From NCBI RefSeq assembly GCF_010671565.1, contig NZ_JAABOQ010000004.1, positions 186,001 through 250,000 on the forward strand: a stretch of 64,000 bases of DNA, in the 5' to 3' direction. The translations under genes were made by a program, and so were the position numbers. The stretch's first letter is position 1. Each line of letters begins with the position of its first letter. The notes below the pieces were generated by a model that was given only the letters and a program-made list of their open reading frames with translations, ran no database searches and was not told the DNA's origin. Origin of the DNA: Spongiivirga citrea (lineage in GTDB: Bacteria; Bacteroidota; Bacteroidia; Flavobacteriales; Flavobacteriaceae). This document shows, piece by piece, positions 8,421 to 28,320 of the stretch.

Positions 8421-9311
8421 CTAGAATTTAATCCCTTCCCACTTCGAGGCGTAAAAAGGTGCAATTTTATTGAGTGTTTCTACAGTTCTAGTGATACTTA
8501 TTTGAGGGCCGTCAGAGAAAATACTGAGTACCTCATCACTTTTGGTGTCGAAGAAAGTTTGAAGTAAAAATGAATTAGGTCGGCGCTTGTTCATCAAACT
8601 CAAAATATTAAAGGTGTTTGATATTTTAACCTTTGCTTTTTTTGGGTCCTCATGCATTAAATCTAAACCTTGACGGTGGTATTGATACATGACTTGGTGA
8701 AATTCCTTGAAGGTATTAGACTGTAAATTATCACTTAACCAAAAACGGTTCCTTCTATTGTTGTCCGCCTGATTCCAGCCTTTAAAACCACTTTGCTGTG
8801 CTTGGTTTAATATTTGTTGCGCAATGGCAAAATACTCCTTCCCTCCATCTGGAGTAAAGGTGGCCGCGTCCATACCAATCATTATATAAACGTAATAGCT
8901 AATTACCGAAACAAGGTTCGATTCAAAGTTATTCGGATTAAATACTAATGGTTGAAACTCTATGTACTGAAACGCAAAGTCGTTGTCTTTATGAAAGAAT
9001 ACTGGCGTTAAATAGGTAGAGTTATACACTGGTCTCGACACCTGTAACTGAATACTCGCCTGAAAATTACCAGAGTCAAACTGCGATACATTAACAAGCA
9101 TATTCGAGCTTATCTTTTCAGAATTGGTATAGCGTTTATTGGTCCACTTTCTCTTATTAACGAAGTCGTTTAACGAGCGTTCGAGCGTTTGAAATATCTG
9201 CTGATTGGTTTGCCCGATCTTGTCAGAATTAACGGTAACCTTACAATTAAGCTCTTGTGCTGTGGTTAACAACATTGAACTGCAAAACAATAAGCACAAA
9301 AATCTACGCAT
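8421..9311 (-). CDS. porD: DUF4835 (PorD-like) secreted protein
   Basis: A 296-residue protein with a signal peptide (MRRFLCLLFCSSMLLTTAQ) and the full-length DUF4835 pattern: an early NxQIFQTLERSLNDFVN region, YYVYIMIGMDAATF, and a C-terminal block ending in a predicted periplasmic domain. The family is confined to Bacteroidota; its Porphyromonas gingivalis member PorD is reported to be needed for type IX secretion. It overlaps the end of coaBC by 8 bp, so it sits in the rpoZ-coaBC operon. Function in this species is inferred from the family only. Confidence 0.85.
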   Translation of the reverse strand: MRRFLCLLFCSSMLLTTAQELNCKVTVNSDKIGQTNQQIFQTLERSLNDFVNKRKWTNKRYTNSEKISSNMLVNVSQFDSGNFQASIQLQVSRPVYNSTYLTPVFFHKDNDFAFQYIEFQPLVFNPNNFESNLVSVISYYVYIMIGMDAATFTPDGGKEYFAIAQQILNQAQQSGFKGWNQADNNRRNRFWLSDNLQSNTFKEFHQVMYQYHRQGLDLMHEDPKKAKVKISNTFNILSLMNKRRPNSFLLQTFFDTKSDEVLSIFSDGPQISITRTVETLNKIAPFYASKWEGIKF

Positions 9312-10515
9312 TGGTTTTCTCTAAAATGACCTTAAAAATATCTTTTGCTACCTCACTTTTTGACTTGAGCTCGTAGCGATATACATTTAATTCCTTATCA
9401 ATTATAGTGATTTTATTGGTGGGTTGTTTAAAACCAGCACCTTTATCATTTAAAGAATTTAGTACAATCATGTCTAAATTCTTTTTTTCAAGCTTCCCTT
9501 TGGCGTTACCTTCTTCGTTTTCTGTCTCTAAAGCAAAGCCAACCAGAAATTGCTCTTTTTTAATTTCACCCAAAGACTTTAAAATATCTTGAGTTGGCTC
9601 TAATTGAATCTCCAACTTCGCATCTTTCTTCTTTATTTTTTGAGTTGCTACGCTTTTTGGCTTATAATCTGCCACCGCAGCTGCACAGATGGCAATATCA
9701 ACTTGATTGTAAATAGCGTGACAAGCATCATACATCTCTTGCGCACTATTTACAGGAATCACATTAATTAAAGAATGAACGACTGTTTGATTGGTTGGCC
9801 CAGTTACCAAATGCACCTCAGCACCGAGATTTGCTGCCACTTTTGCTAGCTCAAATCCCATTTTACCACTACTATGATTACCTATAAAACGTACAGGATC
9901 GATCGCTTCGTATGTGGGACCAGCAGTCATGAGTATTTTTTTTCCTCGAAGTGGCAATTTACTCAACATATCCGCTTCTATAAAAGCGACGATATCTTCT
10001 GGTTCAGCCATTCTTCCTTGACCAGAAAGTCCGCTTGCCAGTTCACCACTAGTTGCAGGAATCATGATATTACCAAAGGATTGCAATTTCTCGAAAGATG
10101 CAGTAGAACTCGGGTGTTTGTACATATCCAAATCCATTGCTGGAGCGAAATATACAGGACATTTTGCCGAGAGGTATGTCGCTAACAAAAAGTTATCGCT
10201 AGCACCCGAAGCCATTTTAGACAAGCTATTTGCCGTAGCTGGAGCTATAATGAAAATATCGGCCCATAAACCTAGCTCAACATGATTATTCCAGACCGCG
10301 CCTTCGTTTTCTTCATCCGTAAACGAAGAAACAACTGGGTTTTTGGACAGCGTGGAGAGCGTTAGGGGGGTAACAAAATCGGATGCTGAAGGCGTCATTA
10401 CGACACGAACCTCAGCACCCGATTTTATAAAAAGCCTTACTAACGAAGCTGTTTTATATGCGGCAATACCAGCAGTTACGCCAAGTAGTACCTTTTTACT
10501 TCGTAAGACAGACAT
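9304..10515 (-). CDS. coaBC: Bifunctional phosphopantothenoylcysteine decarboxylase / phosphopantothenate-cysteine ligase
   Basis: A 403-residue fusion enzyme for the second and third steps of CoA synthesis. The N-terminal CoaC flavodomain (~1-180) has VTAGIAAYK, the catalytic His in NNHVELGLWAD, and PAMDLDMYKHPS, a variant of the PxMNxxMW motif. At the flap, where E. coli has ACG, this protein reads ASG (ELASGLSGQGRMAEPEDI), so the usual Cys appears to be Ser; by memory this is common in Bacteroidota. The CoaB half (~185-403) has TAGPTYEAIDPVRFIGN and KIKKKD. It lies 3 bp after rpoZ and overlaps porD. Confidence 0.95.
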   Translation of the reverse strand: MSVLRSKKVLLGVTAGIAAYKTASLVRLFIKSGAEVRVVMTPSASDFVTPLTLSTLSKNPVVSSFTDEENEGAVWNNHVELGLWADIFIIAPATANSLSKMASGASDNFLLATYLSAKCPVYFAPAMDLDMYKHPSSTASFEKLQSFGNIMIPATSGELASGLSGQGRMAEPEDIVAFIEADMLSKLPLRGKKILMTAGPTYEAIDPVRFIGNHSSGKMGFELAKVAANLGAEVHLVTGPTNQTVVHSLINVIPVNSAQEMYDACHAIYNQVDIAICAAAVADYKPKSVATQKIKKKDAKLEIQLEPTQDILKSLGEIKKEQFLVGFALETENEEGNAKGKLEKKNLDMIVLNSLNDKGAGFKQPTNKITIIDKELNVYRYELKSKSEVAKDIFKVILEKTNA

Positions 10516-10863: not shown

Positions 10864-11676
10864 TTATTTTGTTTCCTGATAATCGACTAATTCTTCGTCG
10901 ATATCAGTAATTAACTTATCTGCCATTTTAATAAACTCACCTTCTGGTCTAAATGCTTTAAGGTCATCATATGCCTCTCTGGCTTCGGTAAGTCTAGTTT
11001 TCTTCAAATACTCATAAGTGTTCATTGCTCGTCTATAAGCCGAATCGAACTTGTAATATAGTGCTTCTTCCTTAAATGGTGTACCGGGATGATCTACTAT
11101 AAAATTATCTAAAGCTGTAATCGATGAGCGATAATCTCTAATGGTATTGTATTGCTTTGCAATTTCAAATGCCTTTTTATCCAATTTTAAACGAAGCTGT
11201 CTTACCATATCGTTAGCTTCAGGAATTTCCTTTGCTGAAGGATATGCATTAATAAAAGCCTGTAATTTTTGAATTGCTGTGATAGTTTCTTCCTGGTCAA
11301 TACTGTATTTAGGAGAAAGTTTGAATGTACTTTTCGCAGCTAAAAATGCTGCTTCTTGAAGTTTCTCGCTTTTAGGATGTGACTTTACAAAACGATCAAA
11401 CTGATATGCAGCAGTGTAGTAGTCTTTTATTTGATAGTAACTGTTTGCATAGAAAAACACGATACGCTCCGCCTGAGGTTTCCCTCTAAACTTAGGTATG
11501 ATTTGTTCAAACAAACGATTGGCTCTTTTAAAATCGCCAGCGTCGTAGTACTGTTGGGCAAGTTCGTACTTGACCTTAGTATCTTCCGACTTTAATGCTT
11601 TTTGATACTCGTTACATGAAACAAGTACTGAAAAACAAGCTACTACGAAAAGAAATTGTGCTACTTTTTGAAACAT
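10864..11676 (-). CDS. bamD: Outer-membrane protein assembly lipoprotein BamD
   Basis: A 270-residue lipoprotein. The signal peptide ends in a lipobox (VLVSCN), with the lipidated Cys at ~21. TPR helices follow: KVKYELAQQYYDAGDFKRANRLFEQI, ERIVFFYANSYYQIKDYYTAAYQF and later GTPFKEEALYYKFDSAYRRA. BamD docks BamA in the outer-membrane insertion machine. The gene heads bamD-rpoZ-coaBC-porD. Immediately upstream begins the accessory block that separates it from dapA. Confidence 0.93.
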   Translation of the reverse strand: MFQKVAQFLFVVACFSVLVSCNEYQKALKSEDTKVKYELAQQYYDAGDFKRANRLFEQIIPKFRGKPQAERIVFFYANSYYQIKDYYTAAYQFDRFVKSHPKSEKLQEAAFLAAKSTFKLSPKYSIDQEETITAIQKLQAFINAYPSAKEIPEANDMVRQLRLKLDKKAFEIAKQYNTIRDYRSSITALDNFIVDHPGTPFKEEALYYKFDSAYRRAMNTYEYLKKTRLTEAREAYDDLKAFRPEGEFIKMADKLITDIDEELVDYQETK

Positions 11677-11680
11677 CGTG

Positions 11681-11688
11681 CAAAATTA
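11681..11688 (-). promoter_or_regulatory. -7 box (TAATTTTG) of bamD
   Basis: On the minus strand TAATTTTG matches TAnnTTTG exactly, 4 nt before the ATG of bamD at 11676. Like the histidine-kinase gene this implies a leaderless or nearly leaderless mRNA. No clear -33 box. It may be a new promoter now used because the accessory block cut bamD off from upstream genes; that is inference. Confidence 0.4.
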
Positions 11689-11987
11689 GAAAATTATACG
11701 GTATTTAAAAGGATTTAATAAAGGAACTTACCCCCTGCCAAATCTATTATCTGGCGCCTAAATTAATCGCTAAATAGAAACGAGCTGTATTTTTAGAAAT
11801 AGTTTAACGTTATCAGGTATGTCATGATATTTTTATGACCAATTAAATCTTGCTATATCTGGCTCATTTTTTGTATAAATGAATTTGACAAAAAAGCTTT
11901 TTATATCTCCTTTAAAATATAGGGTTATGAGAAATAAAAAATTAAATTGCGTATAAACACAAGTTGGCATTAATTAAGAAAACTGAA

Positions 11988-12461
11988 TTGAAAATTAGAG
12001 AAGCACATAGAAATGATTATACCATTTCAACTGACAAGGATAAATTAGATATTTTGAACATTCACAAATTCCTTGCAAACGAAACTGATTGGGCTAACGG
12101 AATTCCAATTAATACTTTAAAAACATCAATTGAAAACTCTTTGAATTTTGGGCTTTATTACGAAAACAAGCAAATTGGCTTTGCTAGAATAATTTCAGAC
12201 TATTCAACTATTGCATATTTAGGAGATGTTTATGTTTTAAAGGAATATAGAGGAAAGGGACTAAGTAAATGGCTGATAAATGAAATAATGGAACACCCTA
12301 ATCTCCAAGGATTAAGACGCTGGATTTTGTTAACTGACACAGCTGAGTGGCTTTATAAAAAATTTGGCTTTACAGAAATACCTAATCCTGAATTTTATAT
12401 GGAGAAACACAACCCGAATGTATATAACGCAACAGATAAAACTAATGCCAACAATGTATAA
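11988..12461 (+). CDS. GNAT-family N-acetyltransferase
   Basis: A ~157-residue GNAT protein. It opens MKIREAHRNDYTISTDKDKL, with ETDWANGIP and FGLYYENKQIGFARIISD, then the acetyl-CoA loop YRGKGLSKWLI (R/QxxGxG/A motif) and LQGLRRWILLTDTAEWLYKKFGF, as in a common single-domain GNAT subfamily of unknown substrate. No ATG is available; TTG at 11988 gives the normal family start. A TTG at 11964 lies inside the GTTGGCATTA unit end and is unlikely. The last residues (NANNV) are encoded by the start of the next palindromic element, typical of a cassette gene running into its recombination site. Confidence 0.8.
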   Translation: MKIREAHRNDYTISTDKDKLDILNIHKFLANETDWANGIPINTLKTSIENSLNFGLYYENKQIGFARIISDYSTIAYLGDVYVLKEYRGKGLSKWLINEIMEHPNLQGLRRWILLTDTAEWLYKKFGFTEIPNPEFYMEKHNPNVYNATDKTNANNV

Positions 12462-12623
12462 CCGTTCAGGGAAATTGCCCACGCCCGTAACTTCGCTATG
12501 AAATTTTAAAACTTCACATCTACATAAAAGACACCTCAAGAACAGTAAATATCAACTAGCGTAAGTTAGGGCAGTAATCAAAATCTCAAGACTATCGTAG
12601 TTCTCAATTTCCCTGAACGGTTA
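12459..12623. repeat. attC-like imperfect palindrome 1 (after the GNAT gene)
   Basis: The outer arms 12459-12477 and 12605-12623 are perfect 19-bp inverted copies. Inside, GCCCGTAACTTCGCTA (12483-12498) pairs with TAGCGTAAGTTAGGGC (12557-12572) with two single-base bulges. About 32 nt lie unpaired on one side only. The element starts within the 3' end of the GNAT gene at TGCCAACAATGTATAA. An asymmetric folded single strand with unpaired bases is what integron attC sites look like. Confidence 0.7.
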
Positions 12624-12699
12624 CCGAATAAAACGCTGAAAAACCTAAAGACAAAACCAATAAATCTCGGCATGAAGCACACAATATTCATGAACCACT

Positions 12700-12831
12700 T
12701 ATAAAGCGCATCCGGCGTTATGAAAGCTCAACGCGAGGCAGACCAAATCCAAAAAATGCCTATCTTCACAAGTGAACAATAACAAATCACCAAAAAAAGC
12801 AGAACAACCAAAACGCCGCACACGCTTTATA
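12700..12831. repeat. attC-like imperfect palindrome 2 (before the esterase gene)
   Basis: TATAAAGCGCATCCGGCGTT (12700-12719) pairs with 12812-12831 at 17 of 20 positions. A small hairpin TTCAC-AA-GTGAA sits at 12765-12776 in the loop. The motif TATCTTCACAAG in that loop recurs in the element after the fourth unit (15286-15297). The next unit appears to begin at GTAGTAGA (12840). Bases 12624-12699 between the two palindromes show no gene. Confidence 0.65.
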
Positions 12832-12870
12832 CGGTGACTGTAGTAGAACATTGACACAAGACCTAAAACT

Positions 12871-13998
12871 ATGAAGCTCTTATTCGCTTTTATCACTTGC
12901 TCTTTTCTAATTACAATATGTCCGGCGCAAGAAAACAATTCTCAAATTTCTATTGGAGTTAATCATATTATAAAATCATCTAATTTAAATGAAGAAAGAG
13001 TGATTCAAGTCCACACACCCGATGGATATTCAGAATCTGAACAAAAATATCCAGTACTGTATATATTGGATGGACAACAGTACTTTTTAAGTGGTGTAGG
13101 GGTTCAAAAAGCCTTGCGTAAGCCACGTGCTATCCCAAAAATGATTATAGTAGGCATTAATGATAACGAATCATCGAGATGGACGTGGTTTGGAGATGAA
13201 AAAGAGAAATTTTCAAGCTTTTTAATTGATGAAGTTATCCCTTTTATTAACTCTAGCTACAGAACAAATGAAGAACATATAATTTTTGGTTGGGAAGGTG
13301 CTGCTTATTATGCGAGTGAATTGATTTTAAAACATCCTGAGGCTTTTAATGGGGTAATATTAAGTAACGGCGGCTATGCTTCTAAAGAAATAATCAAAGA
13401 CTTTAGCAAAACCAAAGCCACTTATCTATATATGGCCAATTCGAAAAAGGATATTTATAACATAAGTTATACTGCAGAATTTCATGAGATTTTGAAAGAA
13501 CATGGTCCCCAAAACCTCGTTTGGAAATATGATTTATACAATGATGAAATACATGAGAGCTTAGCACACTTAGCACTCTACAAGGGATTAAAATTCTATT
13601 ATCACAACTATAATTCACTTGTTTTTGAAAGTATACAACAATACATTGATTTGGGCGGAATGGATTACTTGAATACATATTTTAAAGAACGAGCAAAACG
13701 ATTCGGTGGAAACGAGGCTATAGACAATAGCACAAAAAATGGATTAATTTGGTTAGCATGGAACAAAGATAATTTTAAATATTTCAATCTGTTCATGACT
13801 GAATTCAAAGATGTTTTAACTACAAAAAGATATGCTTCTGCATATTGGCAAAATCGCTTTGGGCAGTTCTACTTAAAACATAAAGATTACCAAAATGCTA
13901 TTAACCATTTTAATGCAGGGCTTACTAAATATCCAAACTCAAGATTTGAAAAACAAATGAAAGAAGGACTCAGCGATGCGAAAAGCAGGAAAGACTAA
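12871..13998 (+). CDS. Putative esterase-like secreted protein with altered nucleophile elbow
   Basis: A 375-residue protein with a signal peptide (cleavage near CPAQ, residue 20), an alpha/beta-hydrolase domain of the esterase D / IroE type (ERVIQVHTPDGYSESEQKYPVLYILDGQQYF) and a C-terminal TPR-like helix pair (FGQFYLKHKDYQNAINHFNAGL). In active relatives the nucleophile elbow is G-x-S-x-G; here it reads G140-W-E-G-A, with Glu142 where Ser should be. The catalytic-His region (DEIHESLAH) is kept. It may thus be a pseudoenzyme. It lies alone between two palindromic elements in the cassette-like array. Confidence 0.75.
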   Translation: MKLLFAFITCSFLITICPAQENNSQISIGVNHIIKSSNLNEERVIQVHTPDGYSESEQKYPVLYILDGQQYFLSGVGVQKALRKPRAIPKMIIVGINDNESSRWTWFGDEKEKFSSFLIDEVIPFINSSYRTNEEHIIFGWEGAAYYASELILKHPEAFNGVILSNGGYASKEIIKDFSKTKATYLYMANSKKDIYNISYTAEFHEILKEHGPQNLVWKYDLYNDEIHESLAHLALYKGLKFYYHNYNSLVFESIQQYIDLGGMDYLNTYFKERAKRFGGNEAIDNSTKNGLIWLAWNKDNFKYFNLFMTEFKDVLTTKRYASAYWQNRFGQFYLKHKDYQNAINHFNAGLTKYPNSRFEKQMKEGLSDAKSRKD

Positions 13999-14027
13999 TT
14001 ATTTAAAACAGAAAATACAATAAACAC

Positions 14028-14140
14028 TCTACAACAATGGCCAAAAGTAATTGCTTGTTCTCGCGGATTTTCGGTTAGGTGCATACTTGCAAAAGTTAAG
14101 TGCTAACGCATGCAACTACTCATAGCGGAAACTGTTGGGC
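14028..14140. repeat. attC-like element 3 (after the esterase gene)
   Basis: It runs from CTCTACAAC (14027-14035) to GTTGGGC (14134-14140), a full match to the integron R' consensus GTTRRRY. Inside, GTTAG (14074-14078) can pair with CTAAC (14102-14106). The internal symmetry is weaker than in the other elements. No coding sequence lies in it. Confidence 0.5.
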
Positions 14141-14154
14141 GCTATTAAAAAACA

Positions 14155-14539
14155 ATGAATAAAACTTATACTATAGAACTAAACGGAATTATTCTCGGCA
14201 CTAGTATGCTGGAAAAAGCGGACCCTTCCATGGGCGTAGTGTTTGGAGAAATTATAATTCGGAATAGTCAAATCGACTATCTCTTTTTAAAATCTTTTTG
14301 TGAAAATAACGGAATTGAATTGGCTAGTGATTATCCAGAAGGCAAATTGATTTCGACTACGACTATTGACTCTTTAAAAGTTACAAACTCTGAAGGAATT
14401 GCAATTGAGGGGGGTTGGAAATCAAATATCTGGAATGGATAGTGAAGGATTTGAAATTTCATTAGAAGGAATTCCCTACCCTTTTTATGAAGAGGAATTT
14501 CCTCATCATGTAAGAGAATCTGAAAACAGGTTTAAATAA
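14155..14539 (+). pseudogene. Small conserved hypothetical gene, frameshifted in a G6 tract
   Basis: The reading frame from ATG 14155 stops at 14442 after 95 residues. A run of six G (14409-14414) precedes the stop. Dropping one G gives a continuous 127-residue protein whose tail reads ISGMDSEGFEISLEGIPYPFYEEEFPHHVRESENRFK in two pieces, ending at 14539 right before the next palindromic element. I recall small unnamed proteins ending in GIPYPFYEEEFPHH, so this tail is likely genuine. The break may be a true inactivating change, a phase-variable tract or a sequencing error. No function is known. Confidence 0.7.
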
Positions 14540-14551
14540 AAATAAACGAAC

Positions 14552-14679
14552 GTCTAACAACGGCTATAATTCATTGCGCCCGAAATTTCCTTCGGAATTT
14601 CCTCGCTGAAAACAATGGGTTCTCTCCTTTTTGCTATCTTAACCTCTACGTAACGAAACAATACACAAACACGTTGTAT
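14552..14679. repeat. attC-like element 4
   Basis: It starts with GTCTAAC (14552-14558), an exact match to the integron R'' consensus RYYYAAC, and ends with GTTGTAT (14673-14679). ACAACG (14557-14562) is inverted as CGTTGT (14672-14677). A second inverted pair ATTG (14573-14576) / CAAT (14659-14662) lies 10 and 9 nt further in, giving a two-box arm on each side. A central hairpin GAAATTTCC-TTC-GGAATTTC sits at 14582-14600. The TTG inside GTTGTAT is not a start codon. Confidence 0.65.
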
Positions 14680-14700
14680 GTAATTAAAATAAACATAGGT

Positions 14701-15156
14701 ATGAGTACTCAAACAGAAATTAAACTATCATCTAATTGGACTAATGTAGGGCTTTATGGTGGAAGCCTTCTAGTTTTATTTATGATTCCTATTCTGATTT
14801 TTGCTACCAAAGAGCAAGAATTTCATATGGGAATGTTACTTGCAGGAATTATATTTTTGGCTCTAATTGGATTTTTAATATACTTATTCATTTATACCTG
14901 TGATGCCAGAATTATTGAGGATAAAATCATTTTGAAAAAACAATTTAGACGAGCAAAGTCGTATTCATTTGATAGGATTGGATATCCAACATCTTTTCAG
15001 TTAAAGAGGACCAAATACATTACAGTCGAAATGAAAAATGACGATAATTCGACTGAAAAGTATCTTATAATGAACTCAAAATCATTATTGTCTTTTGAAA
15101 ATAAAGATGCGGAACAAGCATTAATAAGTTTACGAAATTCGACTCGAAAGAAATAA
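14701..15156 (+). CDS. Small membrane protein, PH-like (hypothetical)
   Basis: About 151 residues. Two TM helices (residues ~20-36 and ~45-65) are followed by a ~75-residue cytosolic beta-rich tail (DARIIEDKIILKKQFRRAKSYSF onward) that looks like the PH-like domain often found after paired helices in small bacterial membrane proteins. The start is ATG 14701 (MSTQTEIKLSS); the frame is open back into the preceding attC-like element but that part is not coding. It is the fourth gene of the cassette-like array. I do not recognise a specific function. Confidence 0.6.
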   Translation: MSTQTEIKLSSNWTNVGLYGGSLLVLFMIPILIFATKEQEFHMGMLLAGIIFLALIGFLIYLFIYTCDARIIEDKIILKKQFRRAKSYSFDRIGYPTSFQLKRTKYITVEMKNDDNSTEKYLIMNSKSLLSFENKDAEQALISLRNSTRKK

Positions 15157-15159
15157 AAA

Positions 15160-15345
15160 CTAAACACAGCTAAGTGTTTAGCGAATAAGATGCGATTTAT
15201 GGCTAATAGTGAGGTACGCCTCACCTCGCTATATATAGTAGACAAACAGGTAAATTGTCTATGCCGATCAATTTCAAAAATTAAGTATCTTCACAAGCAA
15301 ACTATAGCGAATCATTAAATCAAAGCACAATTTTCATAACACAAC
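15160..15345. repeat. Palindrome-rich element 5 after the last cassette-like gene
   Basis: It contains nested hairpins: CTAAACAC (15160-15167) / GTGTTTAG (15174-15181); GTGAGG (15209-15214) / CCTCAC (15219-15224); TAGACAA (15239-15245) / TTGTCTA (15255-15261); TCGCTATA (15226-15233) / TATAGCGA (15303-15310). The motif TATCTTCACAAG (15286-15297) is shared with element 2. It ends near ACACAAC (15339-15345). The remaining bases to 15436 hold only the upstream region of the permease gene. Confidence 0.55.
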
Positions 15346-15436
15346 ATAAGCTTTATCCGATACCCGACCGTGGTAATCTATTTAGGATATAAATACTAAT
15401 CCATAAGCTCGTCTTTGTACAACTAACCAAACAAAC

Positions 15437-17155
15437 ATGCAAGAAAAGACAAACTTCCAACAATTTGAAAATCTAGACGAAGAACAATTACCAGTAGCTA
15501 AACACAAATTACACGATTGGACTCATTTTGCAGGCCTCTACGCTGCCGAACATGTTGCAGCAACAGAGTTTGTAATTGGGGCGACCTTTGTGGCACTTGG
15601 CGCCAAGACGATGGATATCATCCTCGGTCTTCTGATTGGTAATATTCTGGCCGTACTAAGCTGGAGATTCATCACTTCCCCTATCGCAGTTGATACCCGC
15701 TTAAGCCTCTATACCTATCTGAATAAGATTGCAGGTGACTCGATGACAAAACTGTATAATTGGGCCAATGTCATTATCTTTTCAGTGATTTCGGCCGCAA
15801 TGATAACAGTCTCATCCACTGCAGTGCGTTTTGCCTTTGATATTCCGGCACAACTCAATTGGTACCCGACCAATGCTTGGTTTATATTGATTGTATTGGC
15901 TGTTGGTATCGTTGTCGTGTCAATTGCGATCTATGGTTTCAATGCCGTTTCTGAATTCTCGGGCATATGCGCTCCATGGCTCTTTGTGATGTTTACTAGT
16001 GGTGCTATGGTGCTACTTCCTGCCTTATCCTTAGATGTATTAGATAAAACTTTACCAGCTGGATGGGCTGATTTTATGACCCTCGGCGATCAGAGTATCT
16101 GGACAGGCATCAACAGCGATGGCGAGCCTGGAATCGGATTAGTAGAAGTCATCGGTTTTGGTTGGGCTGCTAATACCATTACGCATTTCGGATTGATTGA
16201 TATGGCTCTGCTACGTTTTGCTAAAAAGAAGAACTATGGATATGCAACCAGTACGGGTATGATGTTCGGTCATTATGTAGCATGGATTGCAGCTGGAATC
16301 ATGGGTGCCGGTGCCGCCGTCATATTAGGAAAATCTATTGTAGAACTCGATCCAGGTGATGTGGCTTATTATGCTTTAGGCCTGTCAGGTTTTGTGATTG
16401 TTATTGTTGCCGGTTGGACTACCGCGATTACGAATTTGTACAGGGCAGGTTTGGCAGCACAAGCAATTTTTTTCAACCATTCTCGAAAGAAAACGACTAT
16501 TGTGGTTGGTTTGGTCACCGTAGCCATCGCTTGTTTCCCTTTTGTGTTTTCACAAATACTGCCACTACTAACTTATGCTGGGTTGTTGGTTGTTCCCGTA
16601 GGAGCGATTGTGTTTGCCGAACATCAGATTTTCCCTAGAATTGGTTTTACACGATATTGGTCTTCATACCGCAAACTAACCTTTAGCATGCCTGCAGTTG
16701 CCTCCTGGGGCTTGGGCTTAGTCTTCGGATTTGGCTTGAATTTTTTAGATGTAATTTCCTTCTATTATCTGTTTATTCCTACATGGTTTTTTACCATCGC
16801 GGTGTATACGTTGCTCGCATCTAAATACGGTGCGAAAGAGAATTATGCGGAGGAAGTAAAAGAAGAAGAAGTCCGGATGGAAACGATTGAACGTTTTCAA
16901 GAGGAACAAGCAAAGAATGAGCCCAGTATTGCAAAGGATGTTTCTTTATTCTCGAAAGGATTAAAATTCATAGCCATTTCGGCCTTGGTAGCTACTTTGG
17001 TATTGGCCTGTAATGTGATGTTCGGTAGTGCTACAGAAACAAATTATATTGAAAACCGTGAACTCTTTTATAGGTATGCATTCATCTGTACCATCATTTA
17101 TTTTGTGCTAGCCTATTGGGCGCTTAAACGCGGAAAATCAAATACAGTAGCATAG
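15437..17155 (+). CDS. NCS1-family permease, candidate mannitol transporter
   Basis: A 572-residue integral membrane protein with about 12 TM helices. It resembles the purine-cytosine permease branch of NCS1 symporters, with early helices HDWTHFAGLYAAEHVAATEFVIG and a middle GFGWAANTITHFGLIDMALLRFA region. A charged cytosolic stretch (EEVKEEEVRMETIERFQEEQ) precedes the last two helices and makes the protein longer than typical NCS1 members (~420-490). It ends 2 bp before the mannitol 2-dehydrogenase gene, so the two are cotranscribed. The substrate is therefore more likely a polyol than a nucleobase; this is inference from context. Confidence 0.75.
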   Translation: MQEKTNFQQFENLDEEQLPVAKHKLHDWTHFAGLYAAEHVAATEFVIGATFVALGAKTMDIILGLLIGNILAVLSWRFITSPIAVDTRLSLYTYLNKIAGDSMTKLYNWANVIIFSVISAAMITVSSTAVRFAFDIPAQLNWYPTNAWFILIVLAVGIVVVSIAIYGFNAVSEFSGICAPWLFVMFTSGAMVLLPALSLDVLDKTLPAGWADFMTLGDQSIWTGINSDGEPGIGLVEVIGFGWAANTITHFGLIDMALLRFAKKKNYGYATSTGMMFGHYVAWIAAGIMGAGAAVILGKSIVELDPGDVAYYALGLSGFVIVIVAGWTTAITNLYRAGLAAQAIFFNHSRKKTTIVVGLVTVAIACFPFVFSQILPLLTYAGLLVVPVGAIVFAEHQIFPRIGFTRYWSSYRKLTFSMPAVASWGLGLVFGFGLNFLDVISFYYLFIPTWFFTIAVYTLLASKYGAKENYAEEVKEEEVRMETIERFQEEQAKNEPSIAKDVSLFSKGLKFIAISALVATLVLACNVMFGSATETNYIENRELFYRYAFICTIIYFVLAYWALKRGKSNTVA

Positions 17156-24827: not shown

Positions 24828-26861
<2,034 letters not shown>

Positions 26862-26890
26862 TTAATTTCAAATTAAAGTGCAGGAATAGT

Positions 26891-27472
26891 TTAGGTCAAC
26901 TCCTTTTTAATCCACTTAGGCACTTCAACTGGTTGGTAGTTATTCATTTTTTCAATTAAGCGTTCTATGTTATCATCAACGATCAACATTTCGAAATTGC
27001 TCATTTTTAAGAACCCTTTTCTGACCATATTCTCCAATAGGCCTAACATATCGTCATAAAATCCGCTTGTATTTAATATTCCCATGGGTTTTTGATGTAA
27101 ACCTAATTGCCCCCAAGTAACCATTTCGAATAACTCTTCCAATGTTCCATAGCCACCAGGTAATGTAATAACTGAATCAGAAAGGTCATGCATCAGCAAT
27201 TTACGCTCATGCATATTATTAGTCACATGCAGCTCTGTTAAACCTAAATGCACTACCTCTTTCAACTTTAAAAATTCAGGAATCACACCAATGACACGTC
27301 CCTTATTTTCAAGTGCACCCTGTGCCACTTTCCCCATAATACCGATCTTACCGGCACCATACACTAAATCAATATCATTGTTGGCCAAATAAGCACCTAA
27401 CTGATAGCCCTGATCGATTATTTCGGTATCGTTTCCCTCACTACTTCCACAAAAAACTACACAACTTTTCAT
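26891..27472 (-). CDS. LOG-family protein (TIGR00730 type)
   Basis: A 193-residue Rossmann-like protein with the LOG motifs YGAGKIGIMGKVAQGAL and PGGYGTLEELFEMVTW (PGGxGTxxE). Members hydrolyse cytokinin riboside 5'-monophosphate or AMP to base and ribose phosphate; the biological role in bacteria is often unclear. It overlaps prmC by 4 bp and is translated after it. Confidence 0.88.
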   Translation of the reverse strand: MKSCVVFCGSSEGNDTEIIDQGYQLGAYLANNDIDLVYGAGKIGIMGKVAQGALENKGRVIGVIPEFLKLKEVVHLGLTELHVTNNMHERKLLMHDLSDSVITLPGGYGTLEELFEMVTWGQLGLHQKPMGILNTSGFYDDMLGLLENMVRKGFLKMSNFEMLIVDDNIERLIEKMNNYQPVEVPKWIKKELT

Positions 27473-28320
27473 ACTCTTATGGCTTTTATCATTCTTGGTT
27501 TCCCAAAGATATCGTTTTTAACAGTCACTTTGATAAAACCAGCCGCCTCACAAACTTCTTTTGTTTCTTCAGATAAATATTCATTGATCTCAAAATAGAG
27601 TTTCCCATTTGTTGAAAGAGAATTAAAAGCTAACTCTGCAATCTTTTTATAAAAAATAAGTGGATCATCATCAGACACAAAAAGTGCTTTATCAGGTTCG
27701 AATTGCAATACATTTTTTTGCATTAACTCCTTTTCCTGCTCCCGAACGTAGGGTGGATTAGAAACAATAATATCATAGCTTTCAACTAATGCATCGAGAC
27801 CTAGAATATCAGTCTTTATAAAACTAACCTGCACATTATTTCTTTGCGCATTTTCAGCTGCCTGATCAATTGTTAGCTCATCTATATCAATTGCTGAGAC
27901 GGCGGCCTTTTGAATATTTTTAGCCAAGGAAATGGCAATACAACCTGAACCAGTGCCAATATCTAAAATGGAAATTTCTTGTTCTAAACTCTGATGATCA
28001 TCGATAATCCATTGCACCAAGTCTTCGGTCTCTGGACGAGGAATCAGCGTATGCTGGTTAACCTGAAAATCCAAACCAAAAAAATGGGTTTGCCCGATGA
28101 TATATTGAATAGGTTCGTGATTATTCAAGCGAGATAAGGCAAGGTATAATGTTGTCTCTTCCTCCTTAGAAATCTGCAGGCTGTTGTCTAATGCAAGGCT
28201 AAGACGCGAAATACCAAAATGGTGCTCAGTTAGCATAAAAAAGAAACTCGACACTTCCTCACTTCCGTATTGGGCATCGAGTTCTTTGTGGAATATGTTT
28301 TTTAATTCGGTGAGTTTCAA
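27469..28320 (-). CDS. prmC: Release factor glutamine methyltransferase
   Basis: A 283-residue SAM methyltransferase that methylates Gln of the GGQ motif in release factors. It has the N-terminal helical domain (~1-80), the SAM motif ILDIGTGSGCIAISLA and the catalytic NPPY in YDIIVSNPPYVREQE. The segment IPRPETEDLVQW matches the family too. It overlaps the LOG gene by 4 bp. Confidence 0.95.
   Translation of the reverse strand: MKLTELKNIFHKELDAQYGSEEVSSFFFMLTEHHFGISRLSLALDNSLQISKEEETTLYLALSRLNNHEPIQYIIGQTHFFGLDFQVNQHTLIPRPETEDLVQWIIDDHQSLEQEISILDIGTGSGCIAISLAKNIQKAAVSAIDIDELTIDQAAENAQRNNVQVSFIKTDILGLDALVESYDIIVSNPPYVREQEKELMQKNVLQFEPDKALFVSDDDPLIFYKKIAELAFNSLSTNGKLYFEINEYLSEETKEVCEAAGFIKVTVKNDIFGKPRMIKAIRV

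Follow-up and report, generated by a model that had tools for sequence, protein, structure and literature searches.

A putative decayed cassette cluster in Spongiivirga citrea and its likely origin in an integron-like system of the Bacteroidota

The stretch of DNA analyzed here, called the window, comprises 64,000 nucleotides of the 4.15-Mb Spongiivirga citrea genome (G000) and corresponds to positions 186001-250000 of contig C12. In this window, a block of short genes separated by long palindromes (11963-15372) is located between a YfiO-like gene and a gene encoding a 572-aa permease-like protein. As stated in the initial annotation, its four genes lie on the plus strand and are unrelated. 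They code for a GNAT acetyltransferase and for a PF00756 esterase that has a TPR tail, and the remaining two products are orphans without family. Based on sequence comparisons, the block is very probably a decayed satellite cassette cluster of a chromosomal integron-like system of the Bacteroidota, similar to the known clusters of attC sites lacking an integrase (CALINs).

The initial annotation had described the block as having no integrase, which is true within the window, but the genome has a dedicated tyrosine recombinase with a large array 75 kb upstream. Both were found by the search which had been proposed there, namely for recombinases and for more palindromes beside unrelated genes in the rest of the genome. 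The recombinase gene (C12:121925-123118) is located on the same contig as the block and encodes a protein of 397 aa. It is followed by a 36-kb array on one strand, in which about 20 homologous sites of approximately 125 nt lie between unrelated genes. The pattern AACAAYGNNTATAA, which was read off the window sites, occurs 18 times genome-wide, always on the plus strand and 11 times at C12:123684-158027, compared to 2 and 2 occurrences of the reversed-pattern control. Furthermore, 48 sites from ten genomes were aligned and used to build a covariance model (R1), with the window sites excluded from training. In the genome of S. citrea, R1 (E <= 0.05) detects 24 sites, all on the plus strand, with 19 located in C12:123684-159772 at no more than 37 kb from the recombinase, two in the window and three being solo sites. 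The first cassette of the array starts with GTTGGCAGC 25 nt past the stop codon of the recombinase gene and ends with GCTGCCAAC, and between most of the array genes there is a palindrome that reads YAAC AAYG-NNTATAA...ATANN-ACC GTTR. The cargo is encoded on the strand of the recombinase and includes a GNAT gene, helix-turn-helix and restriction-modification genes, a glyoxalase gene and the Olokun pair OloA/OloB, besides numerous further genes. A restriction-modification fusion is found as a cassette at C12:124010-127483, and the Olokun defence pair at C12:129203-132848 (L025:14203-17845).

The catalytic residues R, K, H, R, H, and Y are all conserved in the recombinase, which is XerA-like and carries an N-terminal extension of ~100 aa. 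The closest solved structures are archaeal XerA (PDB 5hxy, E 1e-37), which is also the top Foldseek match; the AlphaFold model is moderate (pLDDT 77.8, pTM 0.49) and was used for the fold class alone. The best family match is NCBIfam NF040815 (XerA_Arch, 'site-specific tyrosine recombinase/integron integrase') with 210.2 bits, below the cut-off of 220. The score for TIGR02249 is 194.5 bits, likewise below the cut-off (265), which places the protein outside IntI by this criterion. IntI4 aligns to it in two pieces (59 IntI4 residues versus 16 in the recombinase), and the IntI-specific insert is absent in 18 of 18 recombinase relatives and present in the IntI L138. In a phylogenetic tree, which took in three IntI only and does not settle the deeper branch order, the recombinases of the Bacteroidota cluster together (SH-aLRT 97), separately from IntI (100).

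The sites are imperfect palindromes of ~125 nt with the layout R''-spacer-L''...L'-spacer-R', in which R'' is N6-7 AAC and R' is GTT N6-7. Twelve pairs are predicted for the stem, 10 of which show compensatory changes in the 48-site alignment. The bottom strand folds better than the top strand in 44 of these 48 sites. At its conserved mismatches, the top strand has A.C (116 A.C versus 4 G.T in total), and the bottom strand pairs fully because these become G.T there. If the circular site is restored in silico, its bottom strand is predicted to be stabler than the top strand in 118 of 121 cases and also exceeds the linear form in stability in 109 of 121. In 693 kb of sequence, mostly around the recombinases of relatives, R1 yielded 244 matches, which lie on the expected strand except for four palindromic duplicates. 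A same-strand site follows downstream of the recombinase in 26 of 27 genomes; in the remaining genome, the downstream sequence is 0.7 kb long. The draft contigs of G005, G008, G017, G410, G451, and G454 end between some hundred and roughly two thousand bases past the recombinase; since many contigs end in this way, counts of arrays in draft genomes are probably too low. Highly A+T-rich, near-perfect palindromic versions of the site, matching R1 on both strands, were observed in G367:C9 (L127).

The complementarity of the own ends of a cassette, on which the initial annotation had built its comparison with integrons, received strong support from 120 units in seven related arrays and not from the window alone. 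For this analysis, the six bases after GTT were compared with the six bases preceding the AAC of the same unit, the latter read as reverse complement, using sites defined by R1, as an earlier test with pattern-found sites was diluted by missed sites. The mean agreement is 5.41/6, with 105 of the 120 units at 5 or 6, whereas shuffled partners reach a mean of 2.18 (sd 0.12, maximum 2.66 in 5000 shuffles) and the two sides of a single palindrome agree at 2.26/6 only. The pairing extends 11 nt beyond GTT and shows A.C at position 8 in 97 of 106 cases. Such own-end pairing is predicted by one site per circular cassette, but not by transposon ends or terminators.

An attI-like site of ~58 nt begins within the recombinase gene, at its 3′ end, and a conserved sequence ending with ATATAACNAGTT was found overlapping or following the recombinase gene. 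The sequence GATATAACNAGTT occurs four times in 4.15 Mb, all on the plus strand, with one copy behind the recombinase and three directly left of solo cassettes. All four copies have TGTTATCCGG...GGATAT...TGATATAACAA followed by GTT in common, the first boxes lying within the 3′ end of the recombinase gene. The orphan copies are located at C1:22375, C11:589191, and C15:202596 (L030, L033, L034), each followed by one cassette, and no recombinase remnant was found there. The own ends pair at 9/9 positions for the solo cassette on C1, at 7/9 on C15 and more weakly on C11. Similar orphan attI sites are present in other genera, and the cassette of the G028 orphan has ends pairing at 8/9. The left end of the window block matches attI only in the short core given in Table 1.

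Several observations point to movement of the cassettes. In the genus of G014, the recombinase is present in five of six species, and DNA homology between congeners spans the recombinase gene (and the flank where it was read) and stops at the GTT of attI. Beyond it, mainly the sites match and the cassettes differ, apart from one in common. Units are also found in near-identical copies, both in one genome and in different genomes, and these copies break at GTT as well, like two 849-nt copies in G034 with 100% identity, which start directly with GTTGTGCACAAG and end just after CTAGACCGTT. The right end of many copy pairs is ACACGTT or similar, with divergence within a base or two. Some repeats are not clean cassettes, as they start within the preceding site or are insertion sequences. 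Elements of the IS1111/IS110 type (325-aa transposase, three copies) are inserted in sites at R'' AACAA in G024 (L067/L068) and G021 (L078), and a second element (525-aa transposase, two copies) uses the same spot in these genomes. In the joined-stretch coordinates of G024 L067/L068, inserted elements lie at 8885-10100, 13189-14404, and 26528-27743.

In the class Bacteroidia, 151 of 295 sampled genomes and 99 of 156 genera have at least one site (R1, E <= 0.001), and as many as 36 sites lie within 40 kb. R1 was derived from flavobacteria and near relatives and may miss distant sites; it was used in place of the simple 14-mer pattern, which was too noisy for association outside the family across the phylum. 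Recombinase relatives were identified in 104 of 395 genomes of the phylum. IntI above the cut-off was detected in 105 of 395 genomes of the phylum and in one of 98 genomes of the class, as tallied from the kinship column. Among 80 named relatives, sites were found at Bacteroidota loci only, among them those of Winogradskyella ursingii, Algibacter onchidii, Seonamhaeicola aphaedonensis, Zunongwangia mangrovi, and Algoriphagus ornithinivorans.

The features of the window block are listed in Table 1. The ends of unit 1 (GTTGGCATTA and TAATGCCAAC) are exact complements at 10/10 positions and keep the pattern of the family, in which positions 1-7 pair, position 8 is A.C and positions 9-10 pair. The ends of unit 2 (GTAGTAGA and TCTACAAC) agree at 7/8, its start carrying GTA instead of GTT. 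These two pairings stand as initially annotated, but the one claimed for unit 3 is weak, as GTTGGGCGCT and the reverse complement GTTAGACGTT agree at 3 of 6 variable positions, compared to a shuffled mean of 2.2. By themselves, the unit ends of the window are thus suggestive rather than decisive.

Table 1. Features of the putative cassette block, in window coordinates.
Feature	Position	Strand	Description
Left boundary of the cluster, GTATAAACACAA followed by GTT	11951..11965	+	Resembles the attI core only (GATATAACAA followed by GTT); without TTATCC and GGATAT boxes
Cassette 1 body, start GTTGGCATTAATT	11963..12449	+	GNAT acetyltransferase
Cassette 1 decayed site	12450..12635	+	R'' (TAATGCC)AAC; 5′ arm AATGTATAACCGTTCAGGG, 3′ arm CCCTGAACGGTTA
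Second palindrome, TATAAAGCGCATCCGGCGTTATG / CAAAACGCCGCACACGCTTTATA	12691..12842	+	Ends at GTA 12840
Cassette 2 body, start GTAGTAGA (GTT to GTA)	12840..14032	+	Esterase-like open reading frame (ORF) 12871-13998
Cassette 2 recombination site (predicted), AACAATGG...CTGTT	14033..14136	+	R1 46.1 bits, E 1.2e-7
Cassette 3 body, start GTTGGGCGC	14134..14555	+	95-aa ORF 14155-14442, without family
Cassette 3 recombination site (predicted), AACAACGGCTATAATTCATTGC...CACGTT	14556..14675	+	R1 30.4 bits, E 2.3e-4; pattern match
Cassette 4 body, start GTTGTATGTAATT	14673..15157	+	Membrane-protein-like 151-aa ORF 14701-15156
Degenerate terminal site	15158..15372	+	R''-like AACTAAACACAGC at 15158; 3′ end ...ATACCCGACC followed by GTGG at 15370

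The palindromes after the GNAT gene are present as annotated, with inverted repeats at 12459-12477/12605-12623 (19/19) and 12700-12722/12809-12831 (83%). The folding check which the annotation had proposed gave a divided result: the two inverted repeats reach z-scores of -2.2 and -2.8, but the regions 14000-14145 and 14545-14680 have z-scores of -0.1 and 0.2 on the top strand and fold no better than shuffled sequences. The sites of the block fold poorly, and R1 still detects those of cassettes 2 and 3, with ends at R'' AAC and GTT. The initial annotation had spoken of long two-palindrome sites, but the usual site is one ~125-nt hairpin; a double palindrome does exist after the GNAT gene and may well represent two successive decayed sites with a gene-less remnant between them. 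A unit boundary within it (12635-12691) was considered, and no support for it was found. The palindromic stretches 12691-12842 and 15163-15372 are unlike the 125-nt sites and may belong to a different type of site or have arisen by decay; a 57-nt segment is common to the terminal stretch and 12738-12794 (74% identity). The longest frame of cassette 1 covers 11964-12461, its stop codon falling within the cassette 1 site, the R' of which apparently reads GCT where GTT is expected. In total, the block seems to have lost GTT at three boundaries (GCT, GTA, and GTG). No match was obtained in an Rfam scan of 11500-15700 at E 1, and a scan for tRNA and tmRNA genes found none.

Several results weigh against the assignment of the block to this system. 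The own-end match of unit 3 is near chance, the partner of unit 4 is degenerate (AACTAAACACAGC, 9/13), R1 does not detect the first and the last site of the window, and the folding of the window cassettes lacks a clear bottom-strand preference. The block is known from one strain of its species. In the class survey, some recombinase relatives have no detectable site, and the R1 matches in the arrays of the ten training genomes arise partly by construction; neither the window nor the named relatives contributed to this training, nor did most genomes of the class survey. With two of four unit ends poor and the first and last palindromes unmatched by R1, the likeness of the block could be due to chance or a common repeat family. 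This is highly improbable given the E values of the other two sites (1.2e-7 and 2.3e-4), which end exactly at R'' and GTT and were found by a model trained without them, and given the ends of cassette 1, which are exact complements and follow the pattern of the family down to the A.C at position 8.

Long imperfect palindromes are common between genes and the unit ends are inverted repeats, so that ordinary repeats or terminators (like repetitive extragenic palindromes or miniature inverted-repeat transposable elements) and the inverted repeats of transposons were considered as well. They were rejected and have next to no probability left, because the variable ends are particular to each unit and match over a distance of 0.3-6 kb of gene rather than across the palindrome, with own-end complementarity in 105/120 units, because the breakpoints lie at GTT, and because the sites are co-oriented, starting at the recombinase. 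The sites could also be classic attC of a true integron that lost its IntI, the neighbouring XerA-like recombinase being incidental. The GTT/AAC boxes, the own-end complementarity, the bottom-strand bias and the targeting by IS1111-type elements all fit attC, and IntI genes are present in other classes of the phylum as defined by GTDB. However, IntI exceeds the cut-off in 1/98 genomes of the class compared to sites in 151/295, the arrays begin right behind the XerA-like gene in 26/27 genomes, and attI overlaps the 3′ end of this gene, which makes a lost IntI an unlikely explanation.

In the proposed mechanism, the recombinase would excise a unit as a circle by recombination between two sites at G/TT. 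The substrate would be the folded bottom strand, which is expected to be fully paired as the A.C of the top strand becomes G.T. The circle would bear one restored site and may reinsert at attI or elsewhere, for instance at a secondary site like 11963. The cluster in the window probably originated from off-target insertion or separation from the main array, both of which are among the described origins of CALINs (PMC8618304), and would have mutated since then, with GCT, GTA, and GTG replacing GTT. We regard it as rather likely, though with clearly less confidence than the assignment of the block, that integron-type capture arose twice or passed to a second recombinase lineage in the Bacteroidota, with a XerA-like recombinase lacking the IntI insert acting on folded single-stranded sites, and that the Bacteroidia have in it their principal cassette system, which surveys based on IntI have missed. 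If true, cassette capture does not require the IntI insert, and the evolution of folded-strand recombination gains a second case. There would also be a large unlisted pool of mobile genes, including restriction-modification and Olokun defence genes. Integrons, defined by IntI, are regarded as nearly absent from Bacteroidetes, and sites of a parallel system with a different recombinase occur in about half of the sampled Bacteroidia genomes.

Among known systems, XerA is responsible for the resolution of chromosome dimers (PMC8371274). The recombinase has its best family match in NF040815 and its closest structures in archaeal XerA, but its relatives head cassette arrays. Elements of the IS1111-attC group (ISKpn4, ISPst6) target one end of attC (PMC11187229); here, too, elements are located inside sites just after R'' AACAA, but the target is the Bacteroidota site, and the element with the 525-aa transposase uses it as well. 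Like a CALIN, taken as at least two attC within 4 kb with no integrase beside them, the window block has a few cassettes with sites and no adjoining recombinase, its two model-positive sites, which are attC-like, being 523 nt apart. The name suggested by the initial annotation fits the block itself, but by analogy only, as the system to which its sites belong is not of the IntI family. This system, of which the block is very probably a satellite, is present in complete form 75 kb upstream.

For Bacteroidetes, a single complete integron has been described in Salinibacter ruber, and earlier only integrases without cassettes (PMC9024848). A literature search, with preprints and most subscription journals outside its coverage, found no account of the present system, and the proposal of a diverged or undescribed system in the initial annotation is supported. 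With integrons (IntI, attC/attI) the system shares tandem co-oriented short genes, hairpin sites with a G/TT boundary and a GTTR start, complementarity of a cassette's own R'' and R', a bottom-strand folding bias (here in silico) and an attI beside the recombinase gene, as well as species-specific cassette content, CALIN-like satellites and defence genes in the cargo. In contrast to integrons, the recombinase lacks the ~41-aa IntI insert, groups with XerA-like recombinases of Bacteroidota and has the ~100-aa N-terminal extension. Its gene is co-oriented with the array and overlapped by attI at the 3′ end, the complementary ends reach 11 nt past GTT instead of covering RRRY alone and have a conserved A.C at position 8, and orphan attI copies carry single cassettes. 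The IntI-specific domain is treated as defining for integrons (PMC9668308). As judged from its sequence features, the system works like an integron, yet it does not qualify as one if IntI is the criterion.

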